A stretch of DNA of 54,032 bases from Chthoniobacterales bacterium (GTDB lineage Bacteria; Verrucomicrobiota; Verrucomicrobiia; Chthoniobacterales; UBA10450), in the NCBI GenBank assembly GCA_013821455.1, contig JACDGS010000028.1, positions 1-54,032 on the forward strand. The letters are read 5' to 3'. Position 1 is the stretch's first letter; each line of letters begins with the position of its first letter. This document shows positions 19,659 to 49,795 of the stretch, piece after piece. A program made the position numbers and the translations under genes. The notes below the pieces were generated by a model. That model searched no databases, was not told the DNA's origin, and saw only the letters and a list, made by a program, of their open reading frames with translations.

Positions 19659-19782
19659 CACCTGCGAGCAGTTGGACATCTGGGAGTTAGTTAGCAGGAC
19701 GCCTTTAACGTTGCGTTTAGGAGATAGGCGCGACTAGGCTACCTGAGTCTGCCCGCAGTGGCGGAGAGTGCCGAGCCTACTT

Positions 19783-20502
19783 ATGCAACCCGCGCCAGTG
19801 TTCCGGCTTTTTGGCCCGGCGCATCTCGTAGTCATCCTTCTCACGATCGCGCTTCCTGTAGGTTTGGGTATTGCCGTTCGCCTAACGAGATCTCGGCGCG
19901 TCGATCGTGCGGTGGCGACCTGTCTCTCTCTGCTCCTTGTTATCAACTACTGCGGTTACGCGATCTATCTCATGCAGCGCCAGCAAATGGTCTGGCAACA
20001 GGCGCTGCCTTTTCAGCTTTGCGATTGGGCGATGGTTACAGTTATCGTCGCGCTCCTTACTCGTCGCCACAGTTGGACCGAGGTTTCTTACTTCTGGGGA
20101 ATAGGCGGGACCTTCCAGGCTATTCTCACTCCTAACTTACAAGTCGGCTTTCCTGATATTCGCTTTCTCAGTTTCTTTATCGGTCACTGCGGAATCGTGG
20201 CGGGCGTTATCTATCTTCTCGTGGCGCGACGTTTTCGGCCATCGTTAGGTTCCATCTGGCGCACGCTCGCCTGGTCGGAGCTTTATCTTATCGCCACGCT
20301 GCTGGTGGATCGCCTAACGAATGTTAATTACGGCTTCCTTCTGCACAAACCGCAAGCTGCCTCTATCCTGGATTGGCTCTCTAATGTTCATTGGCTCTAT
20401 CTGGTGGAACTCAATGGCCTGGCCTTACTTTTCTTCGCGCTCCTTTATCTCCCCTTCGCGATGGGGGACGTGCGCGGTCTCGCTAGACAGCCGAAGAGCT
20501 AG
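19783..20502 (+). CDS. YwaF-like (TIGR02206) integral membrane protein
   Basis: The 239-residue protein has about six or seven hydrophobic helices and the family opening FRLFGPAHL, followed by QALPFQLCDWAMVTVIVALL, YFWGIGGTFQAILTPNL and NVNYGFLLHKPQAASILDWL. Function of the family is unknown. An in-frame GTG at 19768 is an alternative start. The stop codon overlaps the stop of the convergent patatin gene. It contains two 9-mers (19880, 20312), which the following genes lack. Confidence 0.85.
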   Translation: MQPAPVFRLFGPAHLVVILLTIALPVGLGIAVRLTRSRRVDRAVATCLSLLLVINYCGYAIYLMQRQQMVWQQALPFQLCDWAMVTVIVALLTRRHSWTEVSYFWGIGGTFQAILTPNLQVGFPDIRFLSFFIGHCGIVAGVIYLLVARRFRPSLGSIWRTLAWSELYLIATLLVDRLTNVNYGFLLHKPQAASILDWLSNVHWLYLVELNGLALLFFALLYLPFAMGDVRGLARQPKS

Positions 20503-22664
20503 GGAGTCTTACCACCAAGAGAAGCAACGATCTGCTCCCGCATCGCCTTATTCCAAGTCTGGACATTAGTAGTCTTGGAAGCGCCGCGATCGTATAACTC
20601 CTCCTGCATGGAGCGGGCCGCGCCGTTGGAAAGCATCCAGCCAAGTGGCAAAGGAACCGGGGCCGGCGCGAGCGAGAAGAAGTAAACCTGAGTCTTATCG
20701 CTCGCGGAATCCTTGCGACTTAGCTTCTCGTAGAAGGTCTTCTGCGCTTCGCCGATCTCGCGCTGCGCGTAGATACCCCGAGCGTCGCGGGTGGAAAGCA
20801 GGGCGAAAACGGGCGCCAGCGCATCCTCGAGGAATTGGCCTGGCTTATTATGCGCCGAGTCTCGCTTCGTTGTCGGGGCCTTATCGGATTGGTCCTTGGC
20901 CGCTGCGACCGTGCGCGTACCGGCGCCCGCGCCGCGCGGATCGTTGCTAATCATGATGAGTTTTGGAATGACATCTTCCATCTGACTATCCGGCGCAGTT
21001 ATCTCTCGATTAACCTGGCGCAGGATATCCAGCGCCGTGGTCGCGCCGGAGTTTTCGAAGTAACCACCATCAACCACATGACTGCCATCACGAGCGAAGC
21101 GTCCGGCCGGACTGACGTAAGTAAACCTGGCGCTAAGATGCGCAGCCGTACTTAATGGTAGGTCCAGGTTTGACTCATACTTACTCGCGCCTTCTTCCGC
21201 CGCGAGATAGTCGGAGTTAATAGCCATATTAGAGACGATAACGCGGTTGCCAGTCTCGACTGAGGTGCCATTTAGCAGAAGCGCCGGCACATAGGAGTTA
21301 GGATCATTCCATAGGTCGAGAAGTGGCTCGGCGAACCTGTTGTTATGAGTAGCATGGCGCCAGGACTGCTCCCAACTCTGCTCCAGCCAGCGACCTCGAT
21401 CGAGGTAGGGAAATGGCCAGGGAATAAAGCGCTGGAGGAAATCAGGATAAAGCATCGCTGCTATCGCGGGGGATAGGAAATCCTGCCCTAACATAGTCTG
21501 AGCGGTCTCAGCCATCTTTCCTGGGGGCGGTGGACTGGCGACGAGGGCGGCAAAGACCGCGCCTCCGACGCTGCCTCCCGAGACACCACTTATGACAAAG
21601 ACATGATCGGCAAAGGACGGCTCTGCATCCTGCAAGGACCCAAGCACACTCGCTGTCCAATAAGCCGCACGAATCCCGCCGCCTTCCGAAGCGACAATGA
21701 ACAAAGGCTGCACCGTGCGCCCGGGATATTTCTGGTTGATCCGCATGTGCCAGTCGCGGAGCGCAGTCGCGATATCCTTGGCTGGAGTAGGATTTCCCCG
21801 CGCGATGGTGCGGACCTCATGATTATCATTATTAAAGCTGCAAAGAACTATCCAAAGGGCGAGGAAAGTAAGAACAGGGAGATGATGCCGGCTGCCGAAA
21901 TAGATCAGCGCGCTACCCCAAAAAGCCCACGAGGCCGCGGCGAACATGAGGATGGCTCCTGTGCCCAGGCTACCTGCGCAGCGGACCGGATTTAGGGTGA
22001 AGAGAAGTAGCAATAAGAGTGAGAGAAATGCCATCGTACCCAGGACGAAGTGACTGGTGCGTTCCATTTCGCCCAGCTCGGAGGGTATCGTTTGCGGCGG
22101 AGTAAGAGCTAGGTGGCTCCGTTTCAGAATAGAGCGTCGCAAAACAAACAGAATCCACAGAACAAAGCCGCCCGCGATCGCGCATATCCCTCCATAGAGT
22201 AAGGTTGGCGGAGGGTTAGCCTCATAAGTGCCGCGTGCGCGCAAGAGACTTATCCCTACGAGCCACGCTGGCGCGGCTCCCAGGATGCGCGGGACATTGC
22301 GTTGCGACCAGTTATGCAGCCCTAGCCACCAGCCTTCGCGGTCAGGATGCCAGTCCTCGGAAGTCGCAAAGTCGAAATACAGAAGGACACGCGCAGTGTA
22401 CCAACTAACAAGGCACCATATCAGTAAGCCAATCCAAAAGGCCGAGAAGCGAGCAACATTGGTCGCGCCCGTAAGACTGCCCGCCTCGGCGAGAGCGCGC
22501 AGCACTTCCGTCCCTTGATCGACGCAGAGAAAGATAGCTCCACCGATGAGCGCGACGATAAAACTAAAGCGGCATGGCTTTAGTTGGTGATAGAGATCCT
22601 GCAGGTGCCAAAGGAAGACGGTGAACTTATTGCCGGTTCGTTTCATTTTAATTGAAGGATCCAT
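20499..22664 (-). CDS. Membrane-anchored patatin-like phospholipase
   Basis: The 721-residue protein combines an N-terminal half with about seven or eight membrane helices (residues 33-275) and a C-terminal patatin domain. The patatin parts are present: oxyanion loop SEGGGIRAAYW (about 327-336), nucleophile GVSGGS (Ser362) and DGGY with the catalytic Asp (about 532). It is therefore predicted to be an acyl hydrolase held at the inner membrane. Codon use includes CTA, TTA and AGT, unlike the flanks, and no exact 9-mer is present. The specific function is not recognised. Neighbours are a wall-hydrolase-like fusion and an unknown membrane protein. Confidence 0.85.
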   Translation of the reverse strand: MDPSIKMKRTGNKFTVFLWHLQDLYHQLKPCRFSFIVALIGGAIFLCVDQGTEVLRALAEAGSLTGATNVARFSAFWIGLLIWCLVSWYTARVLLYFDFATSEDWHPDREGWWLGLHNWSQRNVPRILGAAPAWLVGISLLRARGTYEANPPPTLLYGGICAIAGGFVLWILFVLRRSILKRSHLALTPPQTIPSELGEMERTSHFVLGTMAFLSLLLLLLFTLNPVRCAGSLGTGAILMFAAASWAFWGSALIYFGSRHHLPVLTFLALWIVLCSFNNDNHEVRTIARGNPTPAKDIATALRDWHMRINQKYPGRTVQPLFIVASEGGGIRAAYWTASVLGSLQDAEPSFADHVFVISGVSGGSVGGAVFAALVASPPPPGKMAETAQTMLGQDFLSPAIAAMLYPDFLQRFIPWPFPYLDRGRWLEQSWEQSWRHATHNNRFAEPLLDLWNDPNSYVPALLLNGTSVETGNRVIVSNMAINSDYLAAEEGASKYESNLDLPLSTAAHLSARFTYVSPAGRFARDGSHVVDGGYFENSGATTALDILRQVNREITAPDSQMEDVIPKLIMISNDPRGAGAGTRTVAAAKDQSDKAPTTKRDSAHNKPGQFLEDALAPVFALLSTRDARGIYAQREIGEAQKTFYEKLSRKDSASDKTQVYFFSLAPAPVPLPLGWMLSNGAARSMQEELYDRGASKTTNVQTWNKAMREQIVASLGGKTP

Positions 22665-22747
22665 ATCCTGGAAACGCGCATCACCTTAAAGCTCACAGCA
22701 ACCAGAGCTCCGACGGTTCGTAAGGCGTTATTCTTAGCTTGTTAGAT

Positions 22748-24208
22748 CTAACTCTGATTACAAAAGCTTTTAAAGAGCGCACGACCTAGGCTCTCGACCT
22801 CGGCCGCACTCCTTTGCGAGCGAATCGCGCCTGGCGGAACATCACTCGACCCTACAAACACGATATGCATCACTCCCTTTCCCATCTCATGGATATCTCT
22901 ATCATTGAAACCACCATTGCTGGGGTTTGATGGGATAGCTAGTGAATCAGCCATCTTGATCGAGCCTTCACCCAACGCGTTCGGTGGCCCTTTATCGGCG
23001 TAAACGAAGACTGCGCTCTGCTTACCCCAGAACGCAATCCCTATGTCGCCAAGACGAAGCCCTACCCCGCCGAAATCCGGAATCCCGGGAAGTTTCATGA
23101 GACCTTCTCTACGCGCCTCCCCAGCGTCTAGCGGTATGACTCCGAACGAATCTTTTCGCGCATCCAGACTGCTATTATCTGCATGTCTCAAACTGGTCTT
23201 ACCCTGATGGTCCGGATCGCTCGCGTTCGAACTGCCATCGCTATCGATAGCGAACTTACACTCATAGATGGCTGCGGTGCTCACTCCAGGCAGCGGCATC
23301 TTTAGCAGGTTGTGGAAGAGGCAAAAACTCCCTGCCATGATTCCTTTGTAAGAGTCAAATTGGGGCATCGCTCCTGCCTTCGCCCATGGAATCCCGGCCG
23401 CGGCACTGAGGATATCCCAAGCATAATCGGGCAGGCGCTTTGGTAAACCGCTTGGGACTAAATGTAGTTGTTTTAAGTCAGCCGTGTCATCGCTATGTGG
23501 ATCGATCGCATCGTCCGGAAAAACCGGAAGCGGCACGTTACCCTTCCCGATGCGCATACTTAGGAAATGGGCGAGCAAGGCTCCCATCCAGAGCAGACGG
23601 GGTTTCATCCACTGCGCCTCCTTCAATGAGCCGAGGTCACCGAACTCGATCAGAAATTCCGCATCGGTCGTGATGGTAAATTTGAATCCGTAATAACCAG
23701 ACTCATCCGCTGTGAAGTTATCGGGCATGAATCGAAAGGGGAAGAAGGTCCCATAAAGTTTCTTCCACTCTAAGGCGGCCGGCTGATCACTTAGTCCCTT
23801 ATAACCCACGGAAGCGCCGCTCTCTCCGGTATCTGGGTCATCAAAATGAAGGAAGACGGCCACCTTTACCCGGAAGCGTTCGTTCCTGCGCTCCGGCCGT
23901 TTTAGGCTCGCGTCCTCGCGAATGGTGCAAACTCCCGCCGCGCGCAGAATCCGCGTGGCTTCGTTAGCAACCACGGGAGTCCATTCTATTTCCCTACCCA
24001 AAGGTCCTTCTCCACCTGTCTTATCGTCGGGAGTATTCTCGTGGCCAGCCTGGATAAACACATCCCCGTCGAAACCGTCCTCCGGCGTGGGATTCACCGG
24101 CGGTGTTACAACGAGACTGACTTTCTTCTTTCTCCGAGGCTTACTCTTGGTTAGTGCCTTGCTCTTCGCCGGGGCCTTGCTTTTTGTCGTCTTTCGTTTC
24201 GTAACCAT
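22748..24208 (-). CDS. Fusion of Amidase_3-like and GH75 chitosanase-like domains
   Basis: From the ATG at 24208 the product is 486 residues. A Lys/Arg-rich N-terminus (about 1-30) has no signal peptide. Residues about 47-220 fit a zinc amidase: IQAGHEN (His56), REIEWTPVVANEA (Glu73), VAVFLHFDD (His121) and FLIEFGDLGSLKEAQWM (Glu188). Residues about 310-480 fit GH75: KFAIDSDGSS, SFGVIPLD, GIAFWGKQ, VYADKGPPNALGEGS with the paired Asp405 and Glu414, and HIVFVGSS. Both active sites look complete. Two carbohydrate or wall hydrolases on one chain without an export signal is odd. A TTG at 24247 behind AGGAG is an alternative start. Confidence 0.72.
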   Translation of the reverse strand: MVTKRKTTKSKAPAKSKALTKSKPRRKKKVSLVVTPPVNPTPEDGFDGDVFIQAGHENTPDDKTGGEGPLGREIEWTPVVANEATRILRAAGVCTIREDASLKRPERRNERFRVKVAVFLHFDDPDTGESGASVGYKGLSDQPAALEWKKLYGTFFPFRFMPDNFTADESGYYGFKFTITTDAEFLIEFGDLGSLKEAQWMKPRLLWMGALLAHFLSMRIGKGNVPLPVFPDDAIDPHSDDTADLKQLHLVPSGLPKRLPDYAWDILSAAAGIPWAKAGAMPQFDSYKGIMAGSFCLFHNLLKMPLPGVSTAAIYECKFAIDSDGSSNASDPDHQGKTSLRHADNSSLDARKDSFGVIPLDAGEARREGLMKLPGIPDFGGVGLRLGDIGIAFWGKQSAVFVYADKGPPNALGEGSIKMADSLAIPSNPSNGGFNDRDIHEMGKGVMHIVFVGSSDVPPGAIRSQRSAAEVESLGRALFKSFCNQS

Positions 24209-24305
24209 AAGAAGGGTTGCTTTATTATTCGTGTATCTTTCTGACAAGGTCTCCTACTACGAGATATCGTCGCGTCGGCTCAAGTTATAGGACATGTTCT
24301 AACTG

Positions 24306-25625
24306 TTAGGCGTTCCGGTCGATCGGCACCTGGGCTAGGGAAAGCGAGCTCTGCGGACGACGCTCGATCAGGGTAGCGACTGCGGGGCGAAGGTTCATCA
24401 GGTTCTTGAGCAGATTAAACCAAAACGGCGCACCAAGAGTAAGAAGCGCCGCGGTAATTAAAGTACCCGTAAGATGATCAAAAAGATGCAGGCGACGCGG
24501 ATGACCCCAACGACCGAGGAAGGACTCGGGCACCAAGTCAAAGCCCGCGTCCGCGAGCCTCTGTTGTAAGTGGTCGACGTTTTGCTGTTGTTGCTTAAAC
24601 AATTCCGCTGCGTCGTTAGGTGCGCGGCTGCCGCTCAGGATAGGCTGAGCATCTGTGACCGAGGCGGGAGCTGACTTTACCAAGGCAGCGACCATCACAG
24701 GTTGGGTGCGAAGCTGACGCAGGATGTTGATCGTATCCAACTGCAGGAGGAGCGCGATAACGACAGAAAAGAAAATAGTTATTCCGCGCACATGAATCTG
24801 GAACCATTGTTCGGCGCGATCCTGAGCGCTGCCGAACCAGCGTTGGAATCTGTCGTAGGCCTGAGTCGTCGCGCCTTCTACCGCCAACCCAAAGTTAGCT
24901 AGAGAATCGAGCACCGCTTTTTTCTGCTCGGGGGTAGCGAAGAGGTCCGCGACATTGGCAACCGCTTGCAACTTACTTTTTGCTTCTTGCGCCGTCTGAT
25001 CGGGAACGGCTAGCGCGCGCAGAAGATCGCTCGCCTTTTCCGGTAGGATAGCCGGGATTTTATGAAGAGTCGCTTCCGTAGGCGTAAGATGACTTATATC
25101 GTGTAGGATACGGTAAACCTCGCCAGGCCTGATCGCGGTCGCTAACTTCATGCTTTCGTTGCGACTGAGAAAGCTCCAGGCTTGTGTCGAGATAAGTGCC
25201 ACTTTGTCCGGCATCTTGCCTGCAGGAACGAGCGCCTTAGCCGCAGCGACGTTAGTCTCAGCCGTAGTTATATCGGCGGTCTTATCTCCAGCTTTTGCGA
25301 GAAACGTAGTCGCGATAAGCTGCTTTTCCGCACTGATAACTGCCGCCAGATGTGAGCCCTGAGCTGGTATGACCGGTGAGCGATCCTTCGGTGCGAAGAG
25401 CGAGTCGCTTAGTATCGGATCACTTAGAATCTGAGCGGCCAGCGCATGGGCGTATTCTCCGAGCGTTGGGTCGATAGTTTGAAAGGTGAGTGAGAGCGCA
25501 TTCGCGAGGTTCTTACCGCGCAGGGCGAGGGCGGAGGAGGTCATCTGCACCAGGGTGGTGATGAGCAGGCTCACCACGGTCATGATGACCGCGAAGGCGA
25601 TGACGGTATCGAGGGTTTGGAGCAT
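24306..25625 (-). CDS. Unknown membrane protein of the patatin/amidase cassette
   Basis: The 439-residue protein is not recognised. It has one N-terminal helix (TVIAFAVIMTVVSLLITTLV, about residues 7-26), a long Ala-rich soluble region (about 40-275) that includes a coiled-coil-like stretch, a second helix (ITIFFSVVIALLLQLDTI, about 280-297), a linker with NVDHLQQRLADAGFDLVPES, and a third hydrophobic stretch (LITAALLTLGAPFWFNLL, about 385-402). It shares strand, spacing and codon style with the two genes after it, so it is likely part of the same unit. It has only an 8/9 copy of the 9-mer (24613). Confidence 0.75.
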   Translation of the reverse strand: MLQTLDTVIAFAVIMTVVSLLITTLVQMTSSALALRGKNLANALSLTFQTIDPTLGEYAHALAAQILSDPILSDSLFAPKDRSPVIPAQGSHLAAVISAEKQLIATTFLAKAGDKTADITTAETNVAAAKALVPAGKMPDKVALISTQAWSFLSRNESMKLATAIRPGEVYRILHDISHLTPTEATLHKIPAILPEKASDLLRALAVPDQTAQEAKSKLQAVANVADLFATPEQKKAVLDSLANFGLAVEGATTQAYDRFQRWFGSAQDRAEQWFQIHVRGITIFFSVVIALLLQLDTINILRQLRTQPVMVAALVKSAPASVTDAQPILSGSRAPNDAAELFKQQQQNVDHLQQRLADAGFDLVPESFLGRWGHPRRLHLFDHLTGTLITAALLTLGAPFWFNLLKNLMNLRPAVATLIERRPQSSLSLAQVPIDRNA

Positions 25626-25646
25626 CGGTTATGAGAGATCGCGAGA

Positions 25647-25934
25647 TCAGTTCATGGCGCAGGGGAGGCAGTGATTGCTGGCGTCGCGGGAGCTACGGAG
25701 GGTGGCGGGAGAACTGGGTGCATTCGCGTGCAGCGCCGGAGCGGCTGTTCCGCTGGTGTTTCCTGCCGATTCTTTTAGGTCTTGTAAGGCTGGAATATTT
25801 CCGGCGAGGGCATCGTCAAGGACTTTGAGAATTTTGGTTATCTTGTAGTAAAGCGTCTCGCCGTCCGGAGTAAGAATGGCTGAATTAGGAATGTTTTCCG
25901 GTTGGGCATCGGCGATCTTGGAGTAATCCACCAT
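25647..25934 (-). CDS. Small hypothetical protein heading the cassette
   Basis: A possible 95-residue protein starts MVDYSKIADAQPENIPNSAI, continues LTPDGETLYYKITKILKVLDDALAGN and ends in a low-complexity Ala/Ser tail. It lies 21 bases before the unknown membrane protein on the same strand. No family is recognised. The frame is open upstream to 26045, but that part is Arg-rich and looks non-coding. It could be the remnant of a longer gene. Confidence 0.4.
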   Translation of the reverse strand: MVDYSKIADAQPENIPNSAILTPDGETLYYKITKILKVLDDALAGNIPALQDLKESAGNTSGTAAPALHANAPSSPATLRSSRDASNHCLPCAMN

Positions 25935-26266
25935 GACCTTGCCGCATTTGGCACGATCGTCTTTGAATCCGCGGGATGTTGATAACCGGCCTCCGCGGCC
26001 TGCCTGTCTTCTACGGGCGAGTGCGATGGGGCGGGGTCTCTGCATGTTCCCATCTCAACAAATGGAACGTAGATCGCCTATCGGGTGCATCACCTGAATT
26101 ACGCATGTGGAACGATCCGCGTGCGGCGCCCATCGACTATCGGGGATTACCTGACATCTGCCGTCAGGGATGTCAGGGATGAAAAAATCTTTCGCTCCCA
26201 CAGGATTTTTCTTTTTTGTCAGAGGCTCTCCTGATAAATCACTGATTTCTCGCGGCATAGAATCAA
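25935..26266. other. Divergent intergenic region
   Basis: About 330 bases separate the minus-strand cassette from the regulator on the plus strand. No gene is convincing. A hairpin CCTGACATC-TGCCGTCAGG-GATGTCAGG lies near 26150-26178, and the bases just before the regulator are AT-rich (TTTTTCTTTTTTGTC). Promoters for both directions are expected here but none is clear. Confidence 0.45.
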
Positions 26267-26971
26267 ATGGGTTTCCCTGAAAAACTCTCGGTGTTGATCG
26301 TGCATCACGCTCCGTTGATGCGCTTCGGCTTGGCTACTTTAATTCGCTCGAGCCGGCGTTTTCGAATTGCCGGTGAAACGGGCGAAGCGCCAACTGCGCG
26401 CCGCCTTTTTGCGCAGACTAAGCCGAGCCTGGTCGTTCTCAGCCTGAGTTTGCGGCAGGGTGATGGCTTTTCGCTGCTGAAAGACTTTCGGAAGATGGAC
26501 TCATCCGCGCGGGCGGTGGTGGTGACGGCACGGCAGGATTCTCTCTCGCTCCAGCGCGCGTTTAAAGCGGGGGCGCGAGGCTTTGTCGTGACCGAGGATG
26601 AGGCGGTCGAGGTTCTAGATGCCCTTGAGCAGGTCGCCGCGGGAGAGCTGTATGCGAGCGGCACGGTGTCGCGCCGGCTTTTGCAAATGCTGGCGCGCGG
26701 GCAGGTGGAGATTCCGCAAGATGGTTGCGGGAGATTGAGCGACCGCGAGTTGCAGGTCTTCCGGCTCATCGGCAGCGGACTAGGAACCTCGCGTGTCGCG
26801 AGCGAGATGCATCTCAGCGTGAAGACGATTGAGACGCATCGCCAACGGATCAAGCAGAAGCTCGGCCTAACGACGGGGACGGAGTTGACCCAGCGCGCCA
26901 CGCAATTCTTGCTGGAGGCGGCGCGTCGCCGCAGCCGGCCCGGCGGTTTCAGCCTCTCCTCTTCGCGCTGA
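26267..26971 (+). CDS. LuxR/NarL-type regulator with degenerate receiver domain
   Basis: The 234-residue protein has the receiver + LuxR-HTH layout, but the receiver lacks its chemistry. The acidic pair is His13-His14 (VLIVHHAPLMR), the phospho-acceptor position is Ser59 (SLVVLSLSLRQGDG), and the conserved Lys is Thr109 (GFVVTED). Thr87 is kept. The HTH is intact: LSDRELQVFRLIGSGLGTSRVASEMHLSVKTIETHRQRIK (about residues 155-195). It is therefore probably not controlled by aspartyl phosphorylation. Its stop overlaps the start of the next gene (TGATG). No histidine kinase is near. Confidence 0.9.
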   Translation: MGFPEKLSVLIVHHAPLMRFGLATLIRSSRRFRIAGETGEAPTARRLFAQTKPSLVVLSLSLRQGDGFSLLKDFRKMDSSARAVVVTARQDSLSLQRAFKAGARGFVVTEDEAVEVLDALEQVAAGELYASGTVSRRLLQMLARGQVEIPQDGCGRLSDRELQVFRLIGSGLGTSRVASEMHLSVKTIETHRQRIKQKLGLTTGTELTQRATQFLLEAARRRSRPGGFSLSSSR

Positions 26972-27714
26972 TGGGAATGCGACGGCCCTTTCGGATTCTT
27001 ATATTCCTAGTCTTTGCTTCGCCACTTAACGAAGGTCAGGGCGCGAGCGATTTGTCGCCTCCCATCGACGCGTTGATTCCGTGGTTGCTGCGCGAAGACA
27101 CGCAACTGCGGGGGATTCCCTTTGCGGAAGTGATCTTCGATGCCACGGGCAAGAAGGTAATCGCGATCGGTCCGAAGAATGCGACGGATCGCCGCGTCGT
27201 CGGACAGATCTCGACCGTGCTCGATGAAGTCGTTAGGCGACTGAATGCGCCGGAAAGCGTGATCCAAGGTATCCCGAGGATTAACGAGGTGAGCAGTCAC
27301 TTCGAGGATACGATGCGGACGCTACTGGATGCAGTTCCGGGATTGAGCTGCGATTTCCCGCGAACGGTCGAGGGACACGTGCAGCGCTCCGGTTATCCAG
27401 ATTTGCGCCTGGTCGATAAGGAAACCAACCACGTCTTCTATCTCGATCCGAAGCTTTATGCGGCGGGCAGCCGGGACAGCAGCTTTCGCACGTTTTATTT
27501 TGAGCCGAAGAACTCGACCAACAAGGTACGCGAAGACGCGGTCCACTTCATCGTCGGGTTCGAGCACGCGCCGGGAAAGGATGGACACTGGAAATTTACC
27601 CGCTGGGATTTGGTCGATCTGGCGCATTTTCAAGTGAAGCTGAAAGCGGAGTTCCAGGGGAGTAATCACGATATGTATCGCCCGGATGCCATCGTGGCGA
27701 AGAGTGCTCGTTAG
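26971..27714 (+). CDS. Unknown exported protein with PD-(D/E)XK-like motif
   Basis: The 247-residue product starts with a probable signal peptide (MRRPFRILIFLVFASPLNEG). It is not recognised. A segment SGYPDLRLVD followed by NHVFYLDPKLYAAG (about residues 137-162) spaces a PD, and then D-x-K, as in the PD-(D/E)XK nuclease fold; FRTFYFEPKNS and AVHFIVGFEHAPG follow as strands. This is only a motif-level resemblance. It is coupled to the degenerate regulator upstream, and its TAG stop lies in a reverse 9-mer at 27708. Confidence 0.6.
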   Translation: MGMRRPFRILIFLVFASPLNEGQGASDLSPPIDALIPWLLREDTQLRGIPFAEVIFDATGKKVIAIGPKNATDRRVVGQISTVLDEVVRRLNAPESVIQGIPRINEVSSHFEDTMRTLLDAVPGLSCDFPRTVEGHVQRSGYPDLRLVDKETNHVFYLDPKLYAAGSRDSSFRTFYFEPKNSTNKVREDAVHFIVGFEHAPGKDGHWKFTRWDLVDLAHFQVKLKAEFQGSNHDMYRPDAIVAKSAR

Positions 27715-48409: not shown

Positions 48410-49795
48410 GTGCGCAAATTCCGCTTGAGGACGCTGCGCTGGTTTGCGCTGCTCCTCTTTCTGGGGCTGTTCGCGGCCATCGTGCTGCGCTGGATTTCGC
48501 TCGAACGTTTGCGCGAAAGTCTGCTGCGATTCCCGACGCAACAGATCGTCCCGACGCCCGCGCCGCCCTCGCCCGTGCCGATGGCGACGCGCCCGCCTCC
48601 GATTGGCGGCAAACTCGATACCGCGAAATTGTGGAGCGGGATCACGGTGCACGCGCAGGTTGACCCCACGACCGGAGTCGCGGCGTCGGTCGAGCGGATG
48701 GACCCGCAGAGTTACACCATCGATTTGAACCTGAAGGTGCGAGTGCCCACGCCTAACGACAGCATGGACGAGCTGGCGACGGTGACGCCCGAGCTCGCAA
48801 AACTGCTGCCCGGCCTAACGACCTTGATTAAGAGCGGATCGGTCTCGCCGCTTTTTCACGAGCTCTACGACGTGAAGGTGCAGGAACTCCGCCAAAATCT
48901 CGTGCGCCTCGAGCAACTCCTCTCGCGCCATAACTTCTACGATTGTCAGACGATCCTGCAGTTGCGCGATCCGACGACGAAGCGGCAGGCAGTGCTGCTG
49001 CAGGCGGACATGGATGTCGATGCCGACGGCTCCGACGCGGATCGGTTGCCGATCAGCGCGGGCGATTCGATGAATTTCAAACCGTTCACGAGCTATCGCT
49101 GGAAAAAGAAAACCGCGGCGCCAAATGCCTTTCTCGTTCCGGCGGAAGCGACGCTGTTGCGCTACCAAACGGAGTTCGCGCACAAAGGCCTCACGATGGA
49201 GCGGAACCGTGATTTGCGCATCGGCATCCAGCGTGTGCGCGAAGAAGTGGACTCGCTGAAGGGGTTCAGTTTTCTCATCGCGGCGACCGATCCTTACATC
49301 GTAATTCCGGGAATCATGGCGCGCGCGAAGGGAGCGGGCGGTGTAGGGGATTACGCGATCGTGGCGGTGGGGAGCCAGCTTTATCCGGCGATCGTGGGGG
49401 ACGTTGGGCCTAACGATCGAGTCGGCGAAGCGTCGCTCCGCATCGCGCAGGAGGTCAATAAACTGGCCACGCCTAACAATCGGCCGGTGAGCGATCTGAA
49501 GGTGAGTTATGTCATCTTTCCCGAGACGGCGGAGAAGCCTTTCGGTCCGCCGGACCTCGACAAAATTCAGGCGCGTTGCGAGGGCTTGGTAAAGGAGATC
49601 GGCGGCGCGAGTGTGCCGTTGCATCATTGGGAGAATCTGATTCCGCCCCCGCCGACCCCAACTCCGTCGCCAACCGCGACTCCAACACCAACCGCTTCCG
49701 TTTCTTCGTCGCCAAGTCCGACCGCAGCGGTCTCGCCGACGTTCGCTTTTCCTACGCCGAGCCCCAGCTTTTCGCCGTCAGCGAGCGCCCCCTGA
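48410..49795 (+). CDS. Membrane-anchored GH75 chitosanase-like protein
   Basis: The 461-residue protein has an N-terminal membrane helix (WFALLLFLGLFAAIVLRWIS, about residues 11-30), a Pro-rich spacer, and a GH75-like domain at about 165-400: LLQADMDVDADGSD, PYIVIPGIMARAKGAGG, YAIVAVGSQLYPAIVGDVGPNDRVGEASLRIAQ with the paired Asp331 and Glu340, and VSYVIFPET. A long Pro/Ser/Thr tail ends the protein. GH75 enzymes cut chitosan; the natural target here is unknown. It starts at GTG 48410. The Pro/Thr-rich ends suggest that it lies outside the cytoplasm. Confidence 0.78.
   Translation: MRKFRLRTLRWFALLLFLGLFAAIVLRWISLERLRESLLRFPTQQIVPTPAPPSPVPMATRPPPIGGKLDTAKLWSGITVHAQVDPTTGVAASVERMDPQSYTIDLNLKVRVPTPNDSMDELATVTPELAKLLPGLTTLIKSGSVSPLFHELYDVKVQELRQNLVRLEQLLSRHNFYDCQTILQLRDPTTKRQAVLLQADMDVDADGSDADRLPISAGDSMNFKPFTSYRWKKKTAAPNAFLVPAEATLLRYQTEFAHKGLTMERNRDLRIGIQRVREEVDSLKGFSFLIAATDPYIVIPGIMARAKGAGGVGDYAIVAVGSQLYPAIVGDVGPNDRVGEASLRIAQEVNKLATPNNRPVSDLKVSYVIFPETAEKPFGPPDLDKIQARCEGLVKEIGGASVPLHHWENLIPPPPTPTPSPTATPTPTASVSSSPSPTAAVSPTFAFPTPSPSFSPSASAP

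Follow-up and report, generated by a model that had tools for sequence, protein, structure and literature searches.

Exchangeable envelope-hydrolase cassettes with the membrane protein family MP3 in Chthoniobacterales and on plasmids of other phyla

Results

An envelope-hydrolase cassette whose relatives are exchanged at fixed sites

Positions 20499-25934 of a 54,032-nucleotide Verrucomicrobiota contig from a Chthoniobacterales bacterium (the window, meaning the whole stretch analyzed) carry a minus-strand cassette made up of a patatin gene, a gene fusing an Amidase_3-fold domain to a glycoside hydrolase family 75 (GH75) domain, a gene for a membrane protein that we call MP3, and the remnant of a lipoprotein gene (Table 1). 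Such cassettes exist in related genomes and are replaced at fixed chromosomal sites; the enzymes of the window cassette retain catalytic residues, and MP3 stands beside unrelated hydrolases and is in one case fused to a lipase. The explanation that we favor, with a probability of about one half, is that they form an exchangeable, undescribed class of envelope-hydrolase conflict or lysis cassettes, in which MP3 would place hydrolases lacking signal peptides at the inner membrane or export them.

Table 1. Genes of the cassette, its borders and neighbors in the window, and small proteins of related loci
Feature	Position	Strand	Remarks
TMEM164-related gene, other border of the site, outside the cassette	19768..20502	+	PF14808
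Patatin-like phospholipase, N-terminal half membrane-embedded	20499..22664	-	721 aa; PF01734, S362/D532 motifs
Amidase_3-fold and GH75 chitosanase-like fusion	22748..24247	-	499 aa from TTG; 486 aa from ATG at 24208
MP3, three-helix membrane protein, core of the cassette family	24306..25625	-	439 aa; LGAPFWF(N/D) motif C-terminal
Lipoprotein gene remnant, lipobox part missing	25647..25934	-	95 aa; matches about the final 83 residues of a relative with 244 aa
Divergent LuxR-type regulator, degenerate receiver domain	26267..26971	+	neighbor of the cassette
CL10, conserved, likely signal peptide, no family match	26971..27714	+	anchors the cassette site
Second GH75-like gene in the window	48410-49795		461 aa
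Small helical protein, L101	2144-2467		
Small helical protein, L102	7222-7557		
Small helical protein, L135	4679-5011		
Small helical protein, L078	11179-11508		
Small helical protein, L056	2001-2324		

MP3 stands beside varied envelope hydrolases

We located 25 MP3 places in 83 genomes of the window's family and judged 21 of them, leaving aside two at contig ends (L056, L087) and two fragments (G363:C162, G344:C256). The loci were selected by matching, gene starts come from our own script, and several of the genomes are fragmented drafts; labels beyond the Pfam-checked ones rest on profile searches of ours for which checked members served as seeds. At 16 of the 21 places an envelope hydrolase is found no more than three genes from MP3; the count is 13 if we set aside LYZ29, a family with no Pfam match whose lysozyme-like reading is our own. 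The neighboring enzymes are the patatin and amidase-GH75 fusion in the window; GH75 in L079 (a remnant), L080 (with a peptidoglycan-binding domain), L081, L082, L094 and L095; LYZ29 in L085, L089 and L091 (a fragment), and together with C1 in L090; a lipase in L078, with C1 and GH75 further on; CHAP in L088; C1, GH75 and DUF900 in L100; DUF2272 in L101; and M15 with a peptidoglycan-binding domain in L102. MP3 is the most constant part of these cassettes, while the hydrolases vary (GH75, M15, C1, CHAP, DUF2272, lipase, amidase, patatin) and differ in the envelope bond that each targets, be it amide, glycan, peptide or lipid ester. Other parts recur in a subset of places: small helical proteins, lipoproteins (beside several different enzymes) and, nearby, an atypical LuxR regulator together with CL10.

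The association was also seen from the side of the enzyme, in a test that is less exposed to the choice of loci than the neighbor count. Six of 10 cassette-type GH75 matches in the 83 genomes have an MP3 gene at a distance of about 6 kb or less; chance proximity is 0.8% for each, giving P = 7e-11 under random placement, a figure that still includes shared descent of sites. The cassette-type matches were sorted by hand on length, context and score; GH75 matches occur in 60 of the 83 genomes, and most, being a chromosomal membrane-anchored protein of about 460 aa, were not counted. In one genome (G023) a single gene joins MP3 to a lipase-3 domain, and a patatin gene follows it. Simple hydropathy shows no hydrophobic segment at the N terminus and no signal peptide in the cassette hydrolases, with few exceptions, namely the chromosomal GH75, the MP3 fusion, an L130 membrane protein and an L134 M15 enzyme.

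Outside the phylum, we read 10 plasmid MP3 loci from 13 records, and a hydrolase is at or next to MP3 in five. MP3 lies beside Amidase_2 in Caballeronia, followed by a peptidoglycan-binding enzyme, and in Hymenobacter; beside a cell-wall hydrolase in Rhizobium phaseoli; and beside a lipase and an Rv2525c-like glycoside hydrolase in Kovacikia. In Rhizobium NXC14 a patatin gene adjoins MP3, followed by M15. A Nostoc locus with a glycoside hydrolase beyond transposases from MP3 is not counted among the five.

The initial annotation had proposed a possible undescribed cassette of three genes. Their homologues are not single and scattered, as MP3 and envelope hydrolases occur together in several phyla; the cassette and its recurring pairs hold up, while the trio itself was seen, among the loci examined, only here and its hydrolases are exchanged.

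Cassette content is replaced at fixed sites

The window's genome (G000; 4.3 Mb, 117 contigs) and a congener, G328, carry a cassette at the same site, between the TMEM164-like gene and CL10. Between the two genomes, identity is 65-90% for six flanking genes and 79% for the TMEM164-like gene, but the cassette differs: G328 has another MP3 and a peptidoglycan-binding GH75. In the tree, a branch with 100/100 support places the MP3s of G000 and G328 in opposite clades. Beside the same regulator-CL10 pair, G327 has a lipoprotein, a small protein, a broken MP3 and M15, and G325 a DUF900 hydrolase. In other genera the genes for pyrimidine-nucleoside phosphorylase and RibB (families checked) flank the site, and seven genomes hold seven different contents there (G310, G314, G309, G308, G315, G325, G295); G308 shows one border only, and some contigs end inside the site. 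Further common sites are at an SIS gene (L083-L089), at EamA (L079, L081, L095, L127, L128) and at PfpI/CDP-alcohol transferase genes (L012, L092, L097).

CL10 relatives are present in all five genomes of the genus. The CL10 gene overlaps the gene for the LuxR-type regulator by 1 bp, and its product has no Pfam or NCBIfam match above the cut-off. By eye alone, one can pick out PD...DPK in it, a pattern similar to that of PD-(D/E)xK nucleases. A LuxR-type regulator also stands beside cassettes in L078, L101, L102 and L148. Its receiver domain has lost the acidic pair and the phospho-acceptor Asp in five of five aligned sequences, at what we take to be the expected receiver positions; therefore any control of the cassette by this regulator would proceed without a phosphorelay. 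That it controls the cassette at all is our guess from its position.

At 55.1%, the cassette DNA has a lower G+C content than the remainder of the window (59.9%). Its genes have 57-62% G+C at third codon positions (GC3), whereas GC3 is 71.5 +/- 3.5% for the other genes in the window that encode at least 100 aa (n = 47); the earlier impression of DNA unlike its flanks was thus correct. All cassette open reading frames are open and codon-supported, and a promoter and terminator scan of the sequence gave chance-level hits only. What had been listed as a small doubtful gene beside three confident ones proved to be the lipoprotein remnant: 25728-25967 aligns with residues 162-244 of a relative's 244-aa lipoprotein (52%, E = 8e-19), whose full form lies in that relative's cassette. 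The TMEM164-related integral membrane gene at the border overlaps the patatin gene tail to tail by 4 bp and is likewise low in G+C (GC3, 61%).

MP3 is an undescribed family

The window MP3 has three hydrophobic segments by hydropathy. Profile alignment joins it to a second type ("DVAIGLIF...") with 99.8% probability (E = 3.9e-28), and both types share an N-terminal helix, a W-F/Y...DR...WF/Y block that precedes another helix, and LGAPFWF(D/N) in the helix at the C terminus. Most members are about 290-570 aa long, and a large part of them lies outside the membrane. Pfam, NCBIfam, PHROGs and PADLOC contain no family that matches more than one of 21 members at E<=0.01, and solved structures gave no sequence match (best E, 0.2). 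We conclude that MP3 is a real, undescribed family, in line with the initial description of a three-helix protein of no recognized kind.

Of the 83 genomes of the window's family, 22 have MP3, which also occurs on 13 plasmid records (Rhizobium, Agrobacterium, Caballeronia, Hymenobacter, Paracoccus, Vitreoscilla, Kovacikia, Nonomuraea, Nostoc). Relatives occur in Verrucomicrobiota, Pseudomonadota, Bacteroidota and Cyanobacteriota; the plasmid members were reached via the second type, and none is retrieved when the window MP3 is the only query. Among 50,697 phage records there was no match to the Caballeronia MP3 relative or to the window amidase, and we rejected a phage origin for the collections searched; one IMG/VR contig carries MP3.

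The window cassette encodes three enzyme domains with catalytic residues

The patatin gene product scores 34.3 bits against PF01734 (Pfam cut-off, 27.7) and has the Ser-Asp dyad motifs G360-x-S362-x-G364 and D532-G-G. The patatin identification therefore stands, but instead of the seven to eight membrane helices first proposed, simple hydropathy gives about five hydrophobic segments, in the N-terminal half. Matches to this patatin occur in four of 288 phylum genomes, and a 59%-identical relative adjoins an Amidase_2 gene in G166.

The amidase part of the fusion has no Pfam match. With its model, all 31 Foldseek matches at E<=0.001 are Amidase_3 enzymes; the domain covers residues ~52-250, and the mean predicted local distance difference test score (pLDDT) of the whole fusion model is only 48. 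H69, E86, H134 and E201, presumably the metal (H-E-H) and catalytic (E) positions of Amidase_3, are invariant in four of four aligned amidase relatives. The GH75 part scores 25.7 bits in Pfam, 1.3 below the cut-off of 27, and is matched by the chitosanase V-Csn (7tvm) at E = 1.4e-8. Four active-site acids described for V-Csn in passages of PMC9485262 correspond to D335, D337, D418 and E427 of the window GH75. Catalytic residues are thereby present in all three enzyme domains of the cassette, and from sequence and model the fusion is predicted to have both amidase and GH75 activity. Hydropathy found no signal peptide; Foldseek, the V-Csn match, the active-site acids and hydropathy all agree with its first reading as an amidase-GH75 fusion lacking one. 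As a query, the amidase-GH75 sequence matched three of 288 phylum genomes, and a genome-contig search gave two loci.

Compared with GH75 chitosanases (V-Csn, 7TVL-7TVP), the window GH75 shares the four aligned acids but is fused behind an Amidase_3 domain, and its substrate may be peptidoglycan instead of chitosan. The amidase resembles the N-acetylmuramoyl-L-alanine amidases CwlV and AmiC in fold and in metal and catalytic residues; it differs in falling below Pfam detection, in being predicted to be cytoplasmic, and in a C-terminal part that is exchanged (GH75, or another tail in L016).

Discussion

Phage endolysins likewise lack signal peptides and wait for a membrane protein. We infer a comparable course for the cassettes as regards docking or export, trigger and target: the hydrolases would be kept harmless in the cytoplasm and, once the cassette is switched on, MP3 would dock them at the inner membrane or let them across, so that amidase, GH75 and membrane patatin might jointly open the envelope, either the cell's own (regulated lysis) or that of neighbors. 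Self-lysis, attack on neighbors and release of contractile particles are all compatible with this. An immunity protein is expected to change with its toxin; because MP3 persists beside different enzymes, and in one case forms a single protein with one, it would be a platform or passage and not an immunity protein. More tentatively, and at odds well below even, MP3 could be the core of a new device, a membrane platform for interchangeable signal-less hydrolases of many folds that is traded between phyla and swapped at fixed sites. If MP3 does deploy many unrelated hydrolases, it would give signal-less enzymes a new route over the inner membrane, and soil bacteria would have a lysis or antagonism system of a new kind; even with MP3 as a passenger, the exchanged hydrolase sites would offer a tractable case of fast-evolving envelope-active cassettes.

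The cassettes resemble phage holin-endolysin-spanin cassettes in setting wall hydrolases, signal-less by hydropathy, next to a lipoprotein and a membrane protein with several helices. They differ in being chromosomal, in including lipases and cysteine peptidases, and in their context, for which phage records gave no match and IMG/VR the one contig. Holins are small, whereas MP3 has 439 aa in the window and a large non-membrane region. With polymorphic toxin and injected effector systems, such as the type VI secretion system (T6SS) and extracellular contractile injection systems (eCIS), the cassettes share an exchangeable hydrolase repertoire at fixed sites; they differ in that a constant MP3 accompanies changing enzymes and in that we identified no trafficking domain in the cassette, nor the long trafficking protein with C-terminal toxin and immunity gene of polymorphic toxin systems. 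In PMC12419801, the passages on patatins and amidases concern matters other than this cassette system.

Several observations weigh against the favored explanation. Five of the 21 judged MP3 places have no nearby hydrolase (L083, L084, L086, L092, L093), and on plasmids three of 10 MP3 loci have a haloperoxidase gene in place of the hydrolase while the Vitreoscilla MP3 has no fitting neighbor. Conversely, hydrolase sets occur without MP3 (C1-DUF900-Amidase_2; Amidase_2-patatin in L012 and L128; GH75-patatin; a lone patatin in several), and MP3 is hence not obligatory. The exact trio of membrane patatin, amidase-GH75 and MP3 has no second copy among the loci examined. MP3 is rare across the phylum (two of 276 genomes), its model is of modest confidence (mean pLDDT, 69) and has no fold match, and copies in L081 and L102 are broken; the lipoprotein remnant suggests that the window's own cassette copy may be decaying.

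Some of these results bear on three other explanations. The cassette hydrolases might be antibacterial effectors exported by an eCIS, with MP3, the small helical proteins and the lipoproteins as membrane or periplasmic immunity proteins. Injected antibacterial effectors do have a similar hydrolase repertoire, one contig of the window's genome is eCIS-like (L153, G000:C38:1-14000), and eCIS-like loci occur in G328, G364 and G327, among MP3-bearing relatives (L154, L155, L156); we presume these loci to be eCIS-like from their sequence features. Sheath matches were found in 14 of 83 genomes, seven of them among the 22 with MP3, an overlap slightly above chance (Fisher p = 0.036, uncorrected for kinship), leaving 15 of 22 MP3-bearing genomes without such a match. 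The constancy of MP3 beside changing hydrolases is the opposite of what a toxin-specific immunity protein would show, and we identified no such immunity gene in the cassette; with the unmatched phage records, this agrees with the earlier remark that no toxin-immunity or phage gene confirms the module. We regard export by an eCIS as unlikely. As for T6SS, VipB occurs in two of 83 genomes, both without MP3; G000 and all 22 MP3-bearing family genomes lack it, and we rejected this system.

Alternatively, ordinary housekeeping or nutrient-releasing hydrolases could have collected in permissive insertion sites with MP3 as an unrelated passenger. MP3-free hydrolase sets at similar sites (L123-L128) and the five places with MP3 alone would fit. 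The MP3-lipase fusion and the same pairing on plasmids of other phyla speak against it, as does the lack of signal peptides, which would leave these enzymes no simple route to outside substrates, and we consider it distinctly unlikely. Self-lysis as an anti-phage defense (abortive infection) is very improbable: exchangeable content at fixed sites, low G+C as in defense islands and an adjoining atypical regulator would suit it, but PADLOC gave no convincing match (for the window genes only DrmC at E = 0.024, and one weak match in one of 21 MP3s), and the cassette has no sensor or nuclease and no known defense gene among its labeled neighbors.

Further observations concern neighboring genes and related loci. 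On the plasmids of Paracoccus, Rhizobium rosettiformans and Agrobacterium (L109, L117, L118), the haloperoxidase gene, of vanadium type, is followed by MP3, with further conserved genes upstream. In L123-L127, from five genomes, a papain-like C1 peptidase, a DUF900 hydrolase and Amidase_2 form a recurring block without MP3. Lys/Ala-rich N-terminal tails occur on the window fusion (22748-24247) and in L080 (5049), L128 (7474) and L142 (4606); we dropped the idea of a Lys-rich tag common to cassette hydrolases, as an unrelated L140 enzyme has one too. The second GH75-like gene of the window encodes an N-terminal membrane anchor, is present in most family genomes and is apparently a chromosomal housekeeping gene. 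The small helical proteins of Table 1 (107-111 aa), which belong to no family, are encoded next to a cassette lipoprotein and mostly have a hydrophobic C-terminal end.

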